Shown: piece after piece, positions 5,407-60,373 of the stretch
Layout of the letters: each line of letters starts with the position of its first letter
Numbering within the stretch: position 1 is the stretch's first letter
Origin: Acidobacteriaceae bacterium
GTDB taxonomy: Bacteria; Acidobacteriota; Terriglobia; Terriglobales; Acidobacteriaceae
Length of the DNA: 61,049 nt
NCBI GenBank assembly: GCA_027311125.1
Contig: DAICZO010000307.1
Location: 1-61,049, forward strand
Direction: 5' to 3'
Program-made: the position numbers and the translations under genes
Notes under the pieces: generated by a model
The model's database searches: none
Told to the model about the DNA's origin: nothing
Seen by the model: the letters and a program-made list of their open reading frames with translations, nothing else

Positions 5407-6780
5407 CTAGCAACGTAAGATCTTGTCTGAGATGATGGATCTGGTTGCATTGCGAGTATCGATTACTAATCTGGATTCATGAACGATCTGTTTTATGTCA
5501 TAGTAGCTGTGGTCGGTGGCGATCAGGACACAGTCAAACCGTTCCAGATTATGGAGGGGTGTGCTTTCCATCTCCAGATTGTAGTGTCGTCCACGCCCGA
5601 CCCTAGGGAAGAAGGGATCGTTGTATTCCACCTTCGCACCTTCTAGGCTGAGTAACTCTATGATTCGCAATGAAGGCGATTCGCGTAGATCGTCAACATC
5701 CCGTTTGTATGCTAGCCCCAGCAGTAGGATGGATGCCCCCCGCAGGGTTTTGCCATGGCGCACAAGTGCTAAACGGGTAGTATCTACGACATAATCAGGC
5801 ATTGACTCATTGACTTCGCCTGCGAGTTCGATAAATCGTGTAGTGAACCCGAATTGTTTTGCCTTCCAGGTCAGGTAAAAGGGGTCGACAGGAATACAGT
5901 GTCCACCAACACCAGGTCCTGGGTAGAATGCCTGGAATCCAAAGGGTTTTGTTGCTGCTGCATTGATCACCTCCCAGACATCAATACCCATGGGTTCACA
6001 CAGCTGTTTCAACTCGTTTACGAGAGCGATATTGACGGAGCGGTAGATATTTTCGAGTAGCTTAGTCATCTCGGCGGTTGCAGGGGACGAGACTGGGACA
6101 GTTCTCGTAAAGATGCTGCCATAGAGCGCACTGGCAGCAGTACGTGCACGGTCGTCAATTGTACCGATAATCTTGGGAATATCTTTTCTGGGAGTAACCA
6201 TATTACCTGGATCTTCGCGCTCTGGTGAGAAGGCGACCATGACTCCATTAAGGATTCCGTTGGTCGCACCATGGTCTGTTGATCGCAGGACGCGCACGCC
6301 ACGATGTGCTCCATGACGGTTGATTGTCTCCACCACGATCTCTTCTGTGGTACCTGGGTAGGTGGTGCTTTCGAGGATAACCATTTGACCGTCACGGAGG
6401 AAAGGCGCTATGGACTCCATGGTGGAGATGACATAACTCATGTCTGGGGTGTGATCGTGATGTAGGGGAGTTGGAACGCAGATCAGGACGACATCCACGT
6501 CGGCGATTTGGGAGAATTCGGATGTGGCACGGAATCCGGAGGCCTGTGCTGCTTGAATATGCGATGGTTCAATACGATGTATGTAGCTCTGTCCGCGATT
6601 GAGACAGGCAACTTTCTCGGAGTCGATATCAAAGCCGCGGACGGCTAATCCAGTCTCACTAAACATAAGGGTGAGCGGTAGACCAACATAGCCCAAGCCG
6701 ACGATTCCGACTACAGCAGTTCGATCTTCGATTTTGTTAACCCATTTCTGCAGGTCGGATGTGGTGCATGCTTCGATCAT
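5407..6780 (-). CDS. Nucleotide-sugar dehydrogenase (UDP-N-acetylmannosamine/UDP-glucose dehydrogenase family)
   Basis: GIVGLGYVGLPLTLMFSE Rossmann motif, GPGVGGHCIPVDP motif, C-terminal LGLAYKRDVDDLRESPSL; internal ATG at 6780 fits better than the track start at 7161. Confidence 0.92.
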   Translation of the reverse strand: MIEACTTSDLQKWVNKIEDRTAVVGIVGLGYVGLPLTLMFSETGLAVRGFDIDSEKVACLNRGQSYIHRIEPSHIQAAQASGFRATSEFSQIADVDVVLICVPTPLHHDHTPDMSYVISTMESIAPFLRDGQMVILESTTYPGTTEEIVVETINRHGAHRGVRVLRSTDHGATNGILNGVMVAFSPEREDPGNMVTPRKDIPKIIGTIDDRARTAASALYGSIFTRTVPVSSPATAEMTKLLENIYRSVNIALVNELKQLCEPMGIDVWEVINAAATKPFGFQAFYPGPGVGGHCIPVDPFYLTWKAKQFGFTTRFIELAGEVNESMPDYVVDTTRLALVRHGKTLRGASILLLGLAYKRDVDDLRESPSLRIIELLSLEGAKVEYNDPFFPRVGRGRHYNLEMESTPLHNLERFDCVLIATDHSYYDIKQIVHESRLVIDTRNATRSIISDKILRC

Positions 6781-6847
6781 TGAGCGCTCCTGGTAATACA
6801 CGTTGTAGTGGTCGATAGCTTTGAGGGCATTAAGCTGATCGTGGTGT

Positions 6848-7258
6848 TCATTGTGTCTGGATTCGTGGTTCTGCATCGTTATTTGAGTCGTTGACACGAT
6901 CACGACGTTTGGACCTGTGAGTGCCCTTTGTAGGGGACTTACTTCTGCGTCGCATGAGTTCGTTTGCTTTAGGCGTTGATGGGTTGAGCCAGGTTCGTGA
7001 TGCTTCGAGTGGTGTAATGCTAGCTCGAATTGTGGAGTTGGGGCTAAACCGTCCTGACCATTCAGAGATGTTGTGCAAGAGATATGGGGCGATGTTCTGC
7101 GGAGGAGTGAGGGGTGCATCTGTAGAAGTTCGATTGGTAGTGGGTTGAGTAGTTGATGCAAGACTGCCAGTGCTGCCGAAGGGGCTAACCAACAATGTCG
7201 AGAGGGCAGCTACCTGGGCGAGAGCGCATGCATTGCGGCGGCAGGATGTGTTCTCCAT
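6848..7258 (-). CDS. Small putative secreted protein, unknown function
   Basis: 136 aa, signal-peptide-like N-terminus (MENTSCRRNACALAQVAALSTLLVSPFG), SD GAGGAG about 9 nt before ATG at 7258, sigma-54-like element just upstream; no family recognised. Confidence 0.5.
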   Translation of the reverse strand: MENTSCRRNACALAQVAALSTLLVSPFGSTGSLASTTQPTTNRTSTDAPLTPPQNIAPYLLHNISEWSGRFSPNSTIRASITPLEASRTWLNPSTPKANELMRRRSKSPTKGTHRSKRRDRVNDSNNDAEPRIQTQ

Positions 7259-7300
7259 AGTTGCCATCTCCTCACAGTCAATGTGACTACACGGGTGAAT

Positions 7301-7316
7301 AGCACCTGTCCTACCA
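7301..7316 (-). promoter_or_regulatory. Candidate sigma-54 -24/-12 promoter (minus strand), driving the small secreted ORF and possibly the dehydrogenase
   Basis: Minus strand reads TGGTAGGACAGGTGCT; GG-N10-GC spacing exact versus TGGCACN5TTGCW; three non-consensus positions. Confidence 0.5.
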
Positions 7317-7387
7317 AATGGAGTATGAAGTAAAAAGCCTAGAATCAATTGTTTAGAGAGAGTGAAGTGTTGATGCGATGAGAAAGG

Positions 7388-7462
7388 GACACACGTAGTG
7401 TGTCAAAGGGACACACTGTGTTGATTGGGAACAGTGCTGTGTCAAGGGTGTGATTCTGTGTG
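7388..7462. promoter_or_regulatory. Cluster of inverted-repeat sites, candidate enhancer (UAS) for the adjacent NtrC-type regulator
   Basis: Perfect GACACAC-GTA-GTGTGTC at 7388-7404, then GACACACTGTGTT 7410-7422, GAACAGTGCTGTGTC 7429-7443, half-site TGTGTG 7457-7462; about 20 bp apart. Confidence 0.75.
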
Positions 7463-7532
7463 AAGGCCGGCCAAGTATACGTAAGTGTTTTCGTTTGAGG
7501 GTCTTCAGGTTTTGTTGTGCTTTGATACAGTT

Positions 7533-7548
7533 TGGCAATCTGATTGCT
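7533..7548 (+). promoter_or_regulatory. Sigma-54 -24/-12 promoter
   Basis: TGGCAATCTGATTGCT matches TGGCACN5TTGCW at all but one position, with exact GG/GC spacing, about 20 bp before the start codon at 7569. Confidence 0.82.
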
Positions 7549-7568
7549 ATGATTCAATCGGATAAGTA

Positions 7569-9059
7569 ATGATCGACAAAATTCTACTGATCGCAATGTG
7601 CACTGCGCTACTGATAGTTCAGGCTAACGCCGAAGCAGGTGTTTGCCGTAAGCCTGAAGATCAAGCGACGGTAGAGATGCAGGAACGCGCACAGCATGCT
7701 CTGCAGATAAAGTCGTACCGAGCGGTTGAAGAGGAGTTGCGCCTGTACGTTGCAGCACATCCGGAGCAATGCGATCTGAGCCTTCTGCTTGGCAGGGCGT
7801 ATATGTTTCGGAAGAGAGATCGTTCGGCAGAGAAGCTGTTTCGAGCCGTTCTAGAACGTGATGGAAACAATAGGGTTGCAATGCTCGAACTAGCTCGTAT
7901 TGACGGTTACCATGCGAAATACTCCGAGTCTAATCGTTTTTACGAGGTTCTACTGGCGGCCGATCCTGAAGATGAGAGTGCGAGTGTAGGACTGGTGCGT
8001 AACCTCATGGATATGGAGGAGACGACGAACGCTGTAGCTGTCCTCAAAGCAGGCCTGAAGGCACATCCGAACAGTTTACAGTTGCAGGAGTTTCAGGATG
8101 AGTTATCCACCCAGCCAGTAAAGGGACACAACAACGAGAGCGAAGTGCAGCATCGATATCAGAGCCAAGTACAAGACTGGACATACATCATAGTGGATTC
8201 TGCAGGTGATCATATTGTTGAGAACCTGTCACGTTCTACGATCGAGATTACGCCGCGTTTATTCGTTCATTTGACGACACGTGTCCGTTATTTGTCCTCG
8301 CAAGGTGGAATTTTAGAGCCGGTAGACGAGAACGCAGAAAGTCTCGGCGGAGCAACGGTGAGTGCCGTAACATTCCAGGGGACTACCCGTCTTGATTACC
8401 ATCTGACTCACTGGCTTACTTTGACGGGTGGGGGTGGTGGAGTCAGGTTTAATAACGGAACTTCGAGAGGGTTATTTCGTGGTGGGCTCGACCTTCATAA
8501 GGGCAGATCGCTGAGTTTCAACGCTACTTATTTAAAGACTCCTGTTTTGCCAACGCAAGAGGCTGAGACGTTTCATCTGACTGCACAGGGAATTCGGATG
8601 CGACTGGACTGGAGTAAACCGAAAGACCGAATGCATCTAAGCCTATCGGAGTTGCGTTATGCCGATACAAACTTGCGTCATGAACAGCAGTTTGAGGCTC
8701 TTCATTGGTTTGGTGCAAGACGAGTAGATCTTGGCACTGGCGTCGATGTAGAGCATCTGGGCTTTAGCCAGACTTTGAATCATGGCTACTTTAGCCCAAG
8801 TAACTATCAGAGTTACATGGCTTCGGCTGCGGTGAGACTCCATCATTTTCATCACTTTAATGCTGAGTACAAGTTCAGTTCAGGAGCGGAGTCGATCAAG
8901 CCTTCTCCCTTTCGATTTGTGTATGAAGTTACAGCAGATAATTTTGTCAATTTAGGCAAGTGGGACTTACACGCGAACTACACATTTGACCATTCGACAC
9001 AGTCGACGGGAGCTTTCCAGACAAGTTTTGTGAGTGTGGGAGTCAAGTATGCCTTTTGA
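7569..9059 (+). CDS. TPR-repeat protein with C-terminal outer-membrane beta-barrel
   Basis: Signal peptide; TPR-like helices (LLLGRAYMFRKRDRSAEKLFRAVLERDGNN); beta-rich C-terminal half ending in FVSVGVKYAF (terminal Phe). Confidence 0.8.
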   Translation: MIDKILLIAMCTALLIVQANAEAGVCRKPEDQATVEMQERAQHALQIKSYRAVEEELRLYVAAHPEQCDLSLLLGRAYMFRKRDRSAEKLFRAVLERDGNNRVAMLELARIDGYHAKYSESNRFYEVLLAADPEDESASVGLVRNLMDMEETTNAVAVLKAGLKAHPNSLQLQEFQDELSTQPVKGHNNESEVQHRYQSQVQDWTYIIVDSAGDHIVENLSRSTIEITPRLFVHLTTRVRYLSSQGGILEPVDENAESLGGATVSAVTFQGTTRLDYHLTHWLTLTGGGGGVRFNNGTSRGLFRGGLDLHKGRSLSFNATYLKTPVLPTQEAETFHLTAQGIRMRLDWSKPKDRMHLSLSELRYADTNLRHEQQFEALHWFGARRVDLGTGVDVEHLGFSQTLNHGYFSPSNYQSYMASAAVRLHHFHHFNAEYKFSSGAESIKPSPFRFVYEVTADNFVNLGKWDLHANYTFDHSTQSTGAFQTSFVSVGVKYAF

Positions 9060-9089: not shown

Positions 9090-10439
9090 TTGGATGATTA
9101 TCTGGGTAATAGCATGAACGTAATCGTGATTGATGATGACACTTCGATTTGCCGATTTCTGGCGACTGCCATCGCTGCTGCTGGTCATAGTTGCCGCGTT
9201 GCGCATACATTGTCGGAGGCGGAGACGCTGCTGTCTGAGTACACTCCCCAGTTGGCGCTGCTTGATCTGTATCTGAAGGAGAGCAGCGGGCTGGATGTAC
9301 TGCGATTTTTACGCGCAAGGTTCAGTGAGTGTGGGATCGTGATGATGACAGCACATGCCAGTATTGAGACGGTGACTGGGGCACTGCAACACGGTGCGGA
9401 CGAGTATTTGGGTAAGCCGGTTCGGCTAGAAGACTTGCTGGCTTTATTTAAGCGATTTGAGCGTCGATCGGTGGATGTACGTCCGGAGAGTGTTCCATGG
9501 ATACCAACGGCAATCATTGGCAATAGCAAACCTATGCTTGACGTGTATCGGCTAATTGCTCGCGTCGCTCCGACAGATGCCAGCGTTCTGGTGACCGGTC
9601 CCAGTGGTTCGGGTAAAGAGCTAGTTGCACGCGCAATCCATACGTATGGTCTTCGTTCGCGCGGACCATTTATCGCGGTCAATTGCGGAGCACTACCGGA
9701 GCAGATACTGGAGAACGAGCTGTTCGGACATGAACGTGGTGCATTTACTGGCGCAGATACGGCGACGTCGGGGCTGTTTGAAGCGAGCAAGGGTGGGACT
9801 ATATTTTTAGATGAGATTACTGAGACCAGTCTGGCCTTTCAGGTGAAGCTACTGCGGGTCTTGCAAGAAGGTGAAATACGTCGACTAGGATCCAGCAAAA
9901 CGATTGAGGTGGACACAAGGGTTATAGCGGCGACCAACAAGCCGATAGGTACGCTTATAGCTGCTGGTCAGTTTCGAGAAGATCTCTATTACCGCCTTGG
10001 GGTTGTGACGATACCATTGCCATCTTTGGCCGAACGTCGGGACGATATACCTCTGTTAGCACAGTCGTTTCTGCAGCGATCTAATGAAAGGAATGGAAGA
10101 AGCACATACTTTACCCCTGCAGCGGTGCAGGCACTGCTGGAACTTCCGTGGCCAGGCAACGTACGCGAACTTGAAAACTTTATCCAACGACTGGTGATTC
10201 TAGCGCTCACCGACGAAATCGGTTTGGAAGAGGTGCGGCAGGCTCATCAAAACAATGGCTATCTTTTGCAGCAAGCGGATGTTCCTGTTGTCAGTCTGAA
10301 AGATGCTGAGCGAGATCAGATTGTGAAGGTCTTGAAAGAGACGGATGGCAACCGTTCCCTAGCTGCACGGCGTTTGGGTATCGAGCGTAAGACTTTGTAT
10401 GTGAAGGCCAAGCGACTTGGGATCGACCTAAAACTATGA
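9090..10439 (+). CDS. Sigma-54-dependent response regulator (NtrC family: REC-AAA+-Fis HTH)
   Basis: REC domain (VIVIDDDTSI, LLDLYLKESSG), Walker A GPSGSGKE, GAFTGA loop, C-terminal Fis-type HTH; ATG at 9114 is an alternative start. Confidence 0.95.
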   Translation: MDDYLGNSMNVIVIDDDTSICRFLATAIAAAGHSCRVAHTLSEAETLLSEYTPQLALLDLYLKESSGLDVLRFLRARFSECGIVMMTAHASIETVTGALQHGADEYLGKPVRLEDLLALFKRFERRSVDVRPESVPWIPTAIIGNSKPMLDVYRLIARVAPTDASVLVTGPSGSGKELVARAIHTYGLRSRGPFIAVNCGALPEQILENELFGHERGAFTGADTATSGLFEASKGGTIFLDEITETSLAFQVKLLRVLQEGEIRRLGSSKTIEVDTRVIAATNKPIGTLIAAGQFREDLYYRLGVVTIPLPSLAERRDDIPLLAQSFLQRSNERNGRSTYFTPAAVQALLELPWPGNVRELENFIQRLVILALTDEIGLEEVRQAHQNNGYLLQQADVPVVSLKDAERDQIVKVLKETDGNRSLAARRLGIERKTLYVKAKRLGIDLKL

Positions 10440-12784
10440 ATACCGGTGCTGGCTTAGCGAGCAAGCCTTGGTGGAGTCGGAGTGCGGCGCTGGCTTTGTG
10501 CTGCTTTGTGCTCTCTGCACTTTCCAGTTTGATGGGTGGTGTTCGTGAGGTTGGCAGCCGCACGAATGACAGCTTCTTTCGGATACGCAATCGACTAGAG
10601 CAGTCAACCTCTGTCGTGGTGGTTTATATAGACGATGCTTCTTTGTCGGAGCAGGGACGGTGGCCTTGGCGCCGCAGCCAACTTGCAGATCTGATCGACC
10701 GCGTTGCTGCGTCAAAGCCGAATGCGATCGGTCTTGATATTCTGCTCAGCGAGCCTTCGGACCAGCAGGACGACCGTGCCCTGGCCGCTGCTTTTGGACG
10801 TGCTGGCAATGTTGTATTACCGGCTAAGATTACAACTTCGACTGCAGGGCCGTTGTGGATTGAGCCGTTGCCTATGTTTGCATCAGCGGCTATGGCGGTT
10901 GGCCATGTTCAGGCCATTTTAGACGCGGATGGAATCTGCCGAAGACTGCCTGTAGCGGAGATGACTTTGCATGGACCGCTGCTGATGATGTCACAACTGT
11001 TGGCAAACGTGGCGGGTACTACCAAGACGACTGCATCTCATGCTGCTACCAGTGAGGTATTGCAGCCGCGGGTAGTGACCATCGACTACCGCGGACTAGC
11101 CAATGGTAGTCCTCCGTCGCGTACACCATTCCCTACTGTTTCTGCGGCAAGTATGCTTCGTGGCGATGTATATGACTTTCGAGGAAAGACAATAATAATC
11201 GGGTTTGCGGGAACCGGACTTGAGGACGAATTGTTGACTCCGCTGAGTTACAGCAATCCAGCTCCAGGTGTTTTGATTCAAGCGAACATGGTCGACACGC
11301 TGGATCATGCTCGTGAATTGACGACGGTACCTCCCCTCATACAGTCGGTATTGCTGCTGTGCCTATGTTTAGTGGGTGGCAGGCTAATGCAGCAGCAGAA
11401 CACTTTGCGCATAGCGCTGTGGTTGACGCTTAGTCTCATTGGTACGTTCGGTGCTGCATATGCTTGTTTTTTGTTATGGGGACTTCAGTTTGACCTTGGG
11501 CCAGCTTTCGTGGCCAGTCTTCTGCTAGTGCCGCTTGGACAACTGCAACATATCGTTCTAATCCAACGGATGATTGGAACTAGCCTGGGTAATCTGCAGC
11601 GTCAGACTGAGGGGCTGCCGTTATATCTGGCTGGGGCTCTGGTTCCGCAACTGGTTGCCAAGGTTCCAGCATTAAAATTGAAGAGTTCAGAGTCAAAGAT
11701 CGCTTTGATCGCGAAGACTGATCAACAGATTGCAATAGTCTCTGGGTTTCAACAGTCGTTGCTGGATGGTATGCGCGATGGCATTGCCGTATTTGATGAG
11801 TTTGGTAATGCGATGTTTGCCAATCAGGCATGGCGCAGTTTTTTGATTCAGAGCGGTTGGGGCGATGCAGTGGTGTGGCCGGAGATTTCCAGGCTCTTGT
11901 ATCCGATCGGTGTTGGCTCGTCTAGCCATGGTCTGAATCCTGCAGACATGCAGCAGCGAAAGTTGAGAAAAATAGATAATGAGGTGCTGATCGCCGGGCA
12001 GTTGTGGCGGCTGTCTATGGTGCGACTGCCTGCGGTTGCCGCGGTTAAGAAACGGCTATACATGGTTATCTCGGCTGACCTGACGCCGCAGATGGAACGC
12101 GACCAAGCCCGGCAGCAAGCACTTCAATTCATCACACATGAATTGCGGACGCCGCTGGTTTCATTGCTGGGATTTGCGGAGTTGCTGCAATATTTTCCTG
12201 AGCAGGCGCGAGAGGCCGGGGCTGCCGATGTAATTCACCATGAGTCGGAACGGCTCATTGCTTTGACCACGATGTTTTTAGAGTGTCTGAAGCTTGAAAC
12301 CGCACTGCCCGTGGTGACTCCGGAGGAGACGAATATTGAAGTTGTACTACAGAAGGCGAGTTCTCTGGCGGAGTCGCTATGCAGAGCCTCTAACAAAAAG
12401 CTGGTAGTGATTCAACCTTCCGAGCCTGTTGTGGTGAATCTTGATCGAGCGATGATGACCGGAGCATTGCTGAATCTTGTTGCCAATGCAGTGAAGTACG
12501 GGGCTGATAAGGCGGATGTAGTGATTCGTGTTACTGCTGATCGTAATCATGTAGTTTTTGCAGTTCAAAACCAGGGGTCACGGATCCCTGAACATGAGAT
12601 TCACCGACTGTTCGCTCCACAGTATCGTATGTCTGACAATGCTGCTGGGCGAATCGGCTGGGGAATTGGACTGGCTTTTGTTAAGCGGGTTTTAGATGCA
12701 CACGGGGGAGAAGTTCGAGTGGAGAGCGACGATCGCGAGACGAGCTTCCAACTTGTGCTGCCCCTCACACCATTTTCTGAATGA
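10436..12784 (+). CDS. CHASE2 sensor domain histidine kinase
   Basis: N-terminal CHASE2-type sequence (RNRLEQSTSVVVVYIDDASLSEQGRWPWRRSQLADLID..KPNAIGLDILLSEPS), TM segments, H-box FITHELRTPLVSLLGFAELL, N/G boxes; ATGA overlap with regulator. Confidence 0.92.
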   Translation: MNTGAGLASKPWWSRSAALALCCFVLSALSSLMGGVREVGSRTNDSFFRIRNRLEQSTSVVVVYIDDASLSEQGRWPWRRSQLADLIDRVAASKPNAIGLDILLSEPSDQQDDRALAAAFGRAGNVVLPAKITTSTAGPLWIEPLPMFASAAMAVGHVQAILDADGICRRLPVAEMTLHGPLLMMSQLLANVAGTTKTTASHAATSEVLQPRVVTIDYRGLANGSPPSRTPFPTVSAASMLRGDVYDFRGKTIIIGFAGTGLEDELLTPLSYSNPAPGVLIQANMVDTLDHARELTTVPPLIQSVLLLCLCLVGGRLMQQQNTLRIALWLTLSLIGTFGAAYACFLLWGLQFDLGPAFVASLLLVPLGQLQHIVLIQRMIGTSLGNLQRQTEGLPLYLAGALVPQLVAKVPALKLKSSESKIALIAKTDQQIAIVSGFQQSLLDGMRDGIAVFDEFGNAMFANQAWRSFLIQSGWGDAVVWPEISRLLYPIGVGSSSHGLNPADMQQRKLRKIDNEVLIAGQLWRLSMVRLPAVAAVKKRLYMVISADLTPQMERDQARQQALQFITHELRTPLVSLLGFAELLQYFPEQAREAGAADVIHHESERLIALTTMFLECLKLETALPVVTPEETNIEVVLQKASSLAESLCRASNKKLVVIQPSEPVVVNLDRAMMTGALLNLVANAVKYGADKADVVIRVTADRNHVVFAVQNQGSRIPEHEIHRLFAPQYRMSDNAAGRIGWGIGLAFVKRVLDAHGGEVRVESDDRETSFQLVLPLTPFSE

Positions 12785-12792
12785 GGTTCACG

Positions 12793-13566
12793 ATGAATAG
12801 ATATGTTTCAGGAGTGCTGGCTAGTTTTATCGCTATGTTTGCCGTGCTGAGTGCCATCGGCCAGACCGTGGCAGCGAGTAGCGTACATGTTCCGCATGGC
12901 GGAGCTGTCGTGCTCGACTTGAGCGGAAAGATCAAGGTTCATGGTGCGGGGGGGAATAGTTTAGTGATTGCGAGAAACGGAGTAGTGCCTCAGGGCGCGG
13001 TGATCGAAACAGATCCGAATGCCAAGGTCTTACTTCGTCTGGAAGATGGGAGCGAGATTCTGCTGCGTGAGAGTTCTCATCTCGTGATGAACCAGGAGAC
13101 GCTACCCTCGGGAAGCACTTTTTTTGAACTGATACTGGGCAAGCTGCGGGCTGTGGTGACCAAGCGCTATACAGGAACACCCTCGTTTCAGCTAGGTACT
13201 CCGAGCGCTATCGTAGCAGTGCGTGGAACCAGATTTGAGGTGGAAGTCAACAATCACAAAGTGACTGAAGTTGATGTAGAGCAAGGACTGGTGCAGGTGA
13301 CAGGGCGGGCCGCTTCAGAGCCTTCGGTACTGTTGGAGCCTGGATTTTCCACCCGAGTTGGATTGGACAGGATTCCTGAAGCTCCTGTGCCAACAAGTCG
13401 GATTCGGCCAGATGCGCGTGAGGAGCAGGAAAATAAGAGCAAGAAGAACATGCGGGGTAAGGGGAGTGCGCATGAGCCGTCGGGCGCCACTCCGGAGGCC
13501 CGTCCGGGTACTGAGCCGCCAGAACCGGCGGAGCCTGCTGAGACACCCAAGCCTGCACCGCAGTAG
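12793..13566 (+). CDS. Secreted FecR-domain protein
   Basis: Signal peptide; FecR-like VLLRLEDGSEILLRESSHLVM and SAIVAVRGTRFEVEV; Pro/Glu-rich C-terminus; SD GAGG before ATG 12793 (alternative ATG 12781 overlaps kinase stop). Confidence 0.85.
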   Translation: MNRYVSGVLASFIAMFAVLSAIGQTVAASSVHVPHGGAVVLDLSGKIKVHGAGGNSLVIARNGVVPQGAVIETDPNAKVLLRLEDGSEILLRESSHLVMNQETLPSGSTFFELILGKLRAVVTKRYTGTPSFQLGTPSAIVAVRGTRFEVEVNNHKVTEVDVEQGLVQVTGRAASEPSVLLEPGFSTRVGLDRIPEAPVPTSRIRPDAREEQENKSKKNMRGKGSAHEPSGATPEARPGTEPPEPAEPAETPKPAPQ

Positions 13567-44707: not shown

Positions 44708-46480
44708 TCAGCTACCTTGCTGATAGCACTTCAGTACTCCCTCTATGGTGACTACTCCCTCCAGCGTACCCCTTTGTGAACGATTGGATACTGGCAGTAT
44801 GGGCCAGCGAGAGAAGTGATGCAGCGCGGTATCGAGTGGAAGATCAGGGAAGATGACAGGAGTCCGCTCCTGCCCCAACAGGCTTTCGATGGAGATGTCC
44901 TCTTGGTCCGTATCGATACCAGACGTTAGGTCGTTTAGCTCGACTCCACGAGTGGCATACCAGCGCATGTCGCTACAGAGTATGAGCACCGTCTCTGGCA
45001 GACCTGAACCGAGAAGGGCACGAATCTCGACCACCCGCTTGTTGCCCGGAATTATCGGAACGGTCGTCGGTTCTATTGCGGCTTCAATGTGCAGGTTGCT
45101 CTCTTCACGCTGCTCCTCCATCGAGGGGAGGTCCAAACCGTCCTGGTGGGTAAAGATCTCGAAGATTGGGACAGGCTGCAGACTGCGTGCGAGCAGATAA
45201 GCGATTGTATTGGCGAGGATAACTGGAAGGATAATCGAGTAGTTACCACTGACCTCCAACACCATGAAGACCGAGGTGAGCGGTGCGCGCAGAAAAGCTG
45301 CGAACAAGACACCCATTCCAACTAAGGCATACGATCCGATCGAACCAGTCAAGTGGGGGAAGAAGACTTTTTCGAAAGTTCCTACAGTAGCACCCAGCAT
45401 AGCTCCGATGAAAAGCGTAGGCGCAAACATACCGCCGGGTGTGCCACTTGAAAACGAGAGAGTGGTTGCCAGTATCTTGAGCAAGGCCAGTGCCAGCAGT
45501 ACTTTCCAAGCAAATTGGGCATGCATAGCCTGATCGATGGCTGAATAGCCTGGCCCCATCACCTGCGGAAAGCCGAAGTACCCAATTCCTCCAACGAGCA
45601 ATCCTGCTATTGCTGGCTGGAACATTTGCGACTGTGCACCAAGGTTTCGTAGCCGAGGTCGCAGGTAGCCTAACGACTTGGCGAATACCAAAGATGCAAC
45701 TCCACCTACAAGCCCCAGAACCGCATATGCCAGCATTTCGCGCGGGTCGCGCAGCGTGACTGCCGGGATACGGAACATGGGCTCCGCACCCCAGAACCAA
45801 CGGGCTACTACCACGCTGGAGATGGCGGAGAGGACGATGGAGCCAAGAACGGCTGAACTCCATGTCCCGATGACCTCTTCAATAACAAACAGTATGGCCG
45901 AGATCGGAGCATTGAACGCGGCAGCCAGTCCGGCAGCAGCGCCTACAGGAGCGAAGATTCGGAGACGTTCGCGTGACAGGCCGATCTTCCTGCTGATCAG
46001 AGAGGCGACGCCTGCGCCAATCTGTAGTGAGGGGTCTTCCGGCCCCAAGGAGTGCCCTCCTCCAATGGCCAGTGCGGATAGCAGAAATTTGCCTACTACT
46101 GTACGAACCGAGATGTAGCCATTGTGAATGTAGAGGGCAGCTTTGGTTTGATTGACCCCGCTACCACGCACATTTGGAAAGACGTAGCGTGCCAGTACTG
46201 CAGTGATGAGGCCAGCAAGCGCCGGTACGATGATCAGGCGAACCTGTCCAGCACCAGGCGCGGAACCTAGTAGCAGCACGTTCAGCCACTCAATCGCCAT
46301 ACGGAAAGAGACCACAAGCAGGCCGGAGATGATGCCAATGAATATAGATAGCAGGAGGAACAGTCGTTCCTCACGGCCCGGAGCGATACGGCTAATCTCG
46401 GCTGATGATGGCAGTTCCAGTAAAAGAATACGACGTTTTGGTTTATCGCTATCTGGCTTATGGCTGGTTGGGAGCATCAT
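44708..46480 (-). CDS. ClC-type chloride channel/antiporter with C-terminal CBS region
   Basis: GGGHSLGPEDPSLQIGAGVAS, GAAAGLAAAFNAPISAILFVIEEV, FSSGTPGGMFAPTLFIGAMLGA. Confidence 0.95.
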   Translation of the reverse strand: MMLPTSHKPDSDKPKRRILLLELPSSAEISRIAPGREERLFLLLSIFIGIISGLLVVSFRMAIEWLNVLLLGSAPGAGQVRLIIVPALAGLITAVLARYVFPNVRGSGVNQTKAALYIHNGYISVRTVVGKFLLSALAIGGGHSLGPEDPSLQIGAGVASLISRKIGLSRERLRIFAPVGAAAGLAAAFNAPISAILFVIEEVIGTWSSAVLGSIVLSAISSVVVARWFWGAEPMFRIPAVTLRDPREMLAYAVLGLVGGVASLVFAKSLGYLRPRLRNLGAQSQMFQPAIAGLLVGGIGYFGFPQVMGPGYSAIDQAMHAQFAWKVLLALALLKILATTLSFSSGTPGGMFAPTLFIGAMLGATVGTFEKVFFPHLTGSIGSYALVGMGVLFAAFLRAPLTSVFMVLEVSGNYSIILPVILANTIAYLLARSLQPVPIFEIFTHQDGLDLPSMEEQREESNLHIEAAIEPTTVPIIPGNKRVVEIRALLGSGLPETVLILCSDMRWYATRGVELNDLTSGIDTDQEDISIESLLGQERTPVIFPDLPLDTALHHFSRWPILPVSNRSQRGTLEGVVTIEGVLKCYQQGS

Positions 46481-56399: not shown

Positions 56400-56427
56400 C
56401 CTGACACTTGATAAGCGGACAAAGCAA

Positions 56428-56453
56428 AAGCCACGGCATTTGCCGTGGCTTTA
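56428..56453 (-). terminator. Rho-independent terminator between rplS and rnhB
   Basis: AAAGCCACGGCA-TT-TGCCGTGGCTTT perfect stem; minus strand followed by T-rich TTGCTTTG. Confidence 0.8.
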
Positions 56454-60112: not shown

Positions 60113-60373
60113 TTAGGCAGCAGTTGCTTCTGGGGTATTCGAGACGGCAGCAGCAAGCAGCTTGCCAACGCGATCAGAAAGCTGAGCGCCATTGCTGGTC
60201 CAGTAGTCGATGCGATCACGCTTCAGATCGACGGTAGCAGGATTTGTACGGGGATTGTAGGTGCCAACTACCTCAACGGAACGGCCATTGCGGGCGCGAT
60301 CTTTTTCGATAACAACGATGCGGTAGTGGGGCTGCTTGCGCGCTCCAACGCGCGCCAATCGGATCATCAACAC
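60113..60373 (-). CDS. rpsP: 30S ribosomal protein S16
   Basis: MLMIRLARVGARKQPHYRIVVIEKDRARNGRSVEVVGTYNPRTNPATVDLKRDRIDYWTSNGAQLSDRVGKLL. Confidence 0.98.
   Translation of the reverse strand: MLMIRLARVGARKQPHYRIVVIEKDRARNGRSVEVVGTYNPRTNPATVDLKRDRIDYWTSNGAQLSDRVGKLLAAAVSNTPEATAA

Follow-up and report, generated by a model that had tools for sequence, protein, structure and literature searches.

A predicted divergent sigma-54 control region between an NtrC-type regulator operon and an NDP-sugar dehydrogenase gene in Acidobacteriaceae

A 61-kb contig of a 63%-complete metagenome-assembled genome (G000) of a soil acidobacterium, referred to here as the window and analyzed over its whole length, carries on its plus strand an operon for an NtrC-like response regulator, and on its minus strand, transcribed away from it, a gene for an NDP-sugar dehydrogenase. 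The question raised by this locus is whether the non-coding DNA between them is a single control region serving both directions, and whether the regulator encoded next to it is the activator. A preliminary description had proposed two divergent sigma-54-type promoters with a cluster of repeats between them. This arrangement is present, and three species that share the gene order have all kept it. The region at positions 7290–7560 is probably a divergent sigma-54 control region from which the local regulator would drive both directions by way of shared repeats.

Genes on either side and their order in related species

The genes concerned are as follows.

5407–6782, minus strand: NDP-sugar dehydrogenase (TIGR03026 above cut-off; start near 6780, from sequence)
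7569–9059, plus strand: TPR protein, its C-terminal part rich in strands, encoded by the first gene of the plus operon (TPR_19 and TPR_14 matches)
9114–10439, plus strand: NtrC-like response regulator, the proposed activator (receiver, sigma-54-interacting AAA+ domain with GAFTGA, Fis-type HTH)
10436–12784, plus strand: CHASE2 histidine kinase (PF05226, HisKA, HATPase_c)
12781–13566, plus strand: FecR-domain protein (PF04773)

The three domains of the 9114–10439 protein are those of an NtrC-type enhancer-binding response regulator, and both the receiver aspartate and the GAFTGA loop were found. The gene had been placed at 9090–10439; it is there, with the ATG at 9114 a likelier start than the TTG at 9090. 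The rpoN gene (PF04552) is found in all three genomes compared. The predicted structure of the TPR protein has helical repeats up to residue 180 and mainly strands beyond, the strand part at low confidence. A fold search with this TPR/barrel protein was dropped, as the pLDDT is 52 and the strand part is too poor.

Two related species, G045 and G430, whose regulators are 97% and 89% identical to that of the window, have its gene order, the divergent dehydrogenase included. A scan of the genome collection with the TPR protein for further species with a divergent dehydrogenase returned only these two again. The divergent arrangement was found in three species only, and distant relatives have no divergent dehydrogenase beside the operon.

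The dehydrogenase is the first well-conserved gene 3′ of the predicted minus promoter (87% identity with G045 and 85% with G430). It is followed on the minus strand by an unknown protein and then by a YdjC-type deacetylase. The leader between promoter and dehydrogenase, overlooked in the preliminary description, is approximately 510 nt long and poorly conserved, with about 50% identity between the window and G045. A small open reading frame at 6848–7267 (minus strand) lies after the minus promoter and its start resembles a signal peptide. It was rejected as a secreted protein; the frame running from 7267 to 6848 is closed, and not kept, in G430, and its codon-position signal is not clear.

The two -24/-12 elements and the IHF-type site

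The predicted control elements that flank the repeats are the following.

7301–7316, minus strand: -24/-12 element TGGTAGGACAGGTGCT, predicted start near 7290
7343–7355, plus strand: predicted IHF site AATCAATTGTTTA, an exact fit to WATCAANNNNTTR, between the repeats and the minus promoter
7533–7548, plus strand: -24/-12 element TGGCAATCTGATTGCT, predicted start near 7559

Both -24/-12 elements display the TGG-N10-GC spacing, near TGGCAC-N5-TTGCW, in all three species. The plus element had been described as near consensus and the minus element as weaker with the same GG-N10-GC spacing, and both descriptions hold. TGGC-N7-TTGC-W is matched exactly at three places in the 61 kb, namely the plus element and two minus-strand sites at 45480–45495 and 60152–60167. 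With a -24/-12 matrix whose weights were set by hand, so that percentages are a rough guide only, 0.5% of random 300-nt strand stretches score as high as the plus element and 4.8% as high as the minus element. The minus element is therefore weak evidence in one species.

The plus elements of G045 and G430 are TGGCGATCTGATTGCT and TGGCTGCTCGATTGCT. GTTTGGC and GATTGCTAT of this element are unchanged across the three species, and 11 of its 16 positions are invariant. The minus elements of the relatives, TGGCGTTCCAGATGCT in G045 and TGGCGCTCCAGATGCT in G430, keep GG-N10-GC and are nearer the consensus than that of the window, with 10 of 16 positions invariant. In neighboring non-coding stretches the invariant positions number 4 of 27, 25 of 86 and 11 of 36. 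The three-species comparison supports the prediction of a real control region.

The predicted leader on the plus side is only about 10 nt long. At 7545–7553 the sequence TGCTATGAT looks like a sigma-70 extended -10, and the three closest species all retain TGCTATSAT. This could mean that the plus start belongs to sigma-70 and that the repeats are an operator, which seems improbable. A -35 sequence is not conserved, a consensus scan of 6700–7700 found no sigma-70-like promoter, and the sister-group operons described below keep GG-N10-GC and not TATNAT.

The predicted IHF site, also overlooked in the preliminary description, has its center about 59 bp before the predicted minus start (about -59). 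The consensus also fits G045 (AATCAATTGTTTG) and G430 (AATCAATCGCTTG), where differences occur at free positions only and 10 of 13 positions are invariant. The consensus is matched four times in the 61 kb of the window and nine times in related loci totaling 481 kb, and a search allowing up to one mismatch gave no IHF-like site in the stretch from the repeats to the plus promoter. IHF-beta-like proteins of G045 and G430 score just under the curated cut-off, and that of the incomplete window genome scores lower; hence IHF itself is the likely, not the certain, occupant.

These observations bear on whether the minus promoter exists. It may be that only the plus promoter is of the sigma-54 type and autoregulated, that the minus element is a coincidence, and that the dehydrogenase has its promoter elsewhere in the leader. 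The score of the minus element is ordinary in the window, the leader is long and variable, and the lack of a divergent dehydrogenase beside the operon in distant relatives would fit as well. However, the minus TGG and GCT positions are invariant in three species though the spacer has changed, and the exact IHF match sits on the minus side of the repeats, not on the plus side. A plus-only promoter is therefore considered unlikely, and two divergent sigma-54 promoters are the preferred reading.

The repeat cluster and its distribution

Activator-type repeats lie between the two divergent -24/-12 elements, at 7388–7443. The sequences quoted for them earlier were all found where they had been placed. 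The features distinguished here are given below; they have no strand.

7388–7404: repeat 1, GACACAC-GTA-GTGTGTC, a predicted upstream activating site with perfect 7-bp arms
7398–7416: site A of the second pairing option, GTGT-N11-ACAC, with the same layout in L070 (GTGTTGAAATCTGATACAC)
7410–7422: repeat 2, GACACA-C-TGTGTT, of which CACTGTGT is invariant in three species
7410–7443: conserved composite core of the predicted upstream activating sequence, defined by the three-species pattern
7416–7434: site B of the second pairing option, CTGT-N11-ACAG, exact in three species with a variable middle (11 of 19 positions invariant)

Repeat 1 is as had been described. Its GACAC/GTGTC arms are recognizable in G045 and G430, the left arm of G430 being displaced by 1 bp. 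The claimed third inverted repeat, GAACAGTGCTGTGTC at 7429–7443, is not palindromic about its center; the true palindrome there is a small one, ACAG-TG-CTGT at 7431–7440. The half-site TGTGTG at 7457–7462 is present in the window but is not conserved in G045 or G430. The picture of three palindromes in a register of about 20 bp is also too neat. The sequence reads as a chain of half-sites (GACACAC, GTGTGTC, GACACAC, TGTGTT, AACAGT, CTGTGTC), which can be paired as GACAC..GTGTC with centers near 7396, 7416 and 7436, or equally well in the overlapping manner of sites A and B. From the sequence alone the dimer pairing is ambiguous.

The cluster stands out by its composition. Stretch 7317–7532 holds two inverted repeats whose arms measure 7 or more and whose gap is 6 or less, a number reached in 25 of 2000 dinucleotide shuffles. 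Positions 7383–7444 are the 62-mer of the window richest in GACAC, GTGTC, ACACA and TGTGT words. A pattern scan of the minus strand had listed repeat 1 as a terminator, which was rejected; its T tract is weak and it is outside both predicted transcripts. A terminator-like inverted repeat with 12-bp arms is found elsewhere in the window, at 56427–56452 (AAAGCCACGGCATTTGCCGTGGCTTT).

A scan of the 63%-complete genome for a second copy of GACACAC-N3-GTGTGTC with 0 or 1 mismatch gave none. A search with the 7410–7443 core pattern at three or fewer mismatches gave a single match in each of the three genomes, two of which are only about 60% complete, and none with the reversed control. One core per genome is what a regulator with a single main target would show, and E. 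coli ZraR is such a regulator (PMC8249747).

Of 399 genomes of the family, 21 encode a close regulator orthologue (E ≤ 1e-112), and these belong to 13 of 80 genera. In the family loci the CHASE2 kinase and FecR genes adjoin it; in G067 the contig stops inside the kinase gene. Among the congeneric genomes searched, only G045 and the window's own genome have the orthologue, despite the genus being well sampled. This sparse distribution could be due to either loss or horizontal transfer.

Five sister-group operons display GATACACCC..GGATACAC (or a diverged copy) followed by TTTnGGC..TTGCC, which is invariant in all five. Where both GATACAC copies are intact they are spaced by 22 bp, which is the spacing of GACACAC at 7388 and 7410. 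The operons that share this 22-bp GAYACAC arrangement have regulators that are 52–53% identical. Upstream of the TPR gene in L068, L069 and L070, the GATACAC repeats are preceded at about 60 bp by a conserved near-palindrome, GGTACTAGCACC. In the L066, L068, L069 and L070 regulators the sigma-54 contact loop is GAYTGA, not GAFTGA.

Of ten related operons without a TPR gene, five (L037, L072, L073, L078 and L079) have a near-consensus -24/-12 sequence directly before the regulator gene, at a distance of 50–105 bp. The -24/-12 elements at orthologous operons in other genera support a prediction of sigma-54-dependent autoregulation and suggest that sigma-54 control of this operon is old. A search upstream of the more distant regulators gave no repeats of the GACAC/GTGTC type; this type of sequence is limited to closer relatives. 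A wider regulon marked by GAYACAC-N15-GAYACAC was considered and rejected; matches outside the regulator operons have no recognizable -24/-12 arrangement and are mostly in reading frames, and reversed controls are roughly as frequent as real matches.

The repeats might instead bind another factor, such as a different sigma-54 activator or a repressor, with the local regulator acting elsewhere. In favor of this, the sigma-54 activator domain gives ten matches in the 63%-complete window genome, one of them the local regulator, and the distant regulators have no such repeats upstream. This explanation nevertheless appears quite unlikely. The composite site occurs a single time in each of three genomes and there is beside the local regulator, and operons of related regulators are likewise preceded by GAYACAC copies in the 22-bp layout. 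The local regulator is the proposed activator.

Proposed mechanism and comparison with known systems

In the proposed mechanism, the CHASE2 kinase (10436–12784) would phosphorylate the NtrC-like regulator (9114–10439), which would then bind two or three adjacent GACAC/GTGTC sites within 7388–7443. Bound regulator may reach sigma-54 RNA polymerase at both promoters through DNA looping. Rightward it would activate the operon in which it is itself encoded, together with the TPR/barrel protein, the CHASE2 kinase and the FecR protein, and so form a positive feedback loop. Leftward, aided by an IHF-type bend at 7343–7355, it would activate transcription toward the NDP-sugar dehydrogenase. A role in surface polysaccharide may be suggested by the dehydrogenase family and by analogy with the Burkholderia BiofilmReg operon discussed below.

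Literature searches found no description of a sigma-54 circuit for a CHASE2/FecR/TPR module in acidobacteria. A broader proposal is put forward tentatively, at somewhat less than even confidence: the CHASE2/FecR/TPR envelope-sensing module that recurs in the family may be a self-amplifying sigma-54 switch with essentially one genomic target, whose enhancer has been extended to a divergent sugar-nucleotide dehydrogenase in one small lineage. If true, the locus offers a concrete enhancer with predicted starts, binding sites and a bend site, and it makes surface polysaccharide a possible output of a sensing module whose signal is not known. The locus would also be a comparative case of an autoregulated enhancer acquiring a second, divergent target.

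Several known systems resemble parts of the locus. In the PEP-CTERM system PrsK/PrsR/PrsT, which is linked to exopolysaccharide genes, an activator motif lies upstream of -24/-12 sites (PMC1569441). As in that system, the window has a sigma-54 response regulator, a histidine kinase and a TPR protein. However, the regulator scores 332.8 against 502.6 bits, far below the PrsR cut-off (TIGR02915), the TPR protein is far under the PrsT cut-off, and the kinase has CHASE2. In addition, Prs is a large regulon whereas the window has a single composite site.

The BiofilmReg operon of Burkholderia encodes a response regulator, a FecR-domain protein and a CHASE2 kinase, and disruption of the regulator gene abolished biofilm (PMC5192318). 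The window likewise has a FecR-domain protein and a CHASE2 kinase together with a response regulator, but the regulator in Burkholderia is mostly of the CreB type and that of the window is NtrC-like. The BiofilmReg paper reports no link with sigma-54, and the word sigma is absent from its text (PMC5192318).

In E. coli zraP/zraSR, which has an envelope function, the main binding place of the NtrC-type regulator is the divergent spacer beside its own operon (PMC8249747). There, as in the window, the operon of an NtrC-type regulator forms one of two divergent units. Unlike zraP/zraSR, the window has a CHASE2 kinase, FecR and TPR proteins and an NDP-sugar dehydrogenase, and its control region is a predicted one.

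In the orp1/orp2 locus of Desulfovibrio vulgaris, divergent sigma-54 promoters are served by palindromic sites of one cognate activator, with IHF sites, at -42/-43 and -79, between the activator sites and the promoters; DVU2106, the activator, is expressed from a sigma-70 promoter and represses its own expression (PMC3897727). The window is similar in its divergent sigma-54-type promoters and the repeats between them. Its predicted IHF site (about -59) is on the minus side only, where orp has IHF sites on both sides, and its regulator gene lies inside one sigma-54-type operon. The orp genes position the septum, whereas those of the window are for envelope signaling and sugars. Since the layout is very close to those of orp and zraP/zraSR and the Prs cut-offs were not reached, the predicted switch is of a known type and it is the combination of genes that is new.
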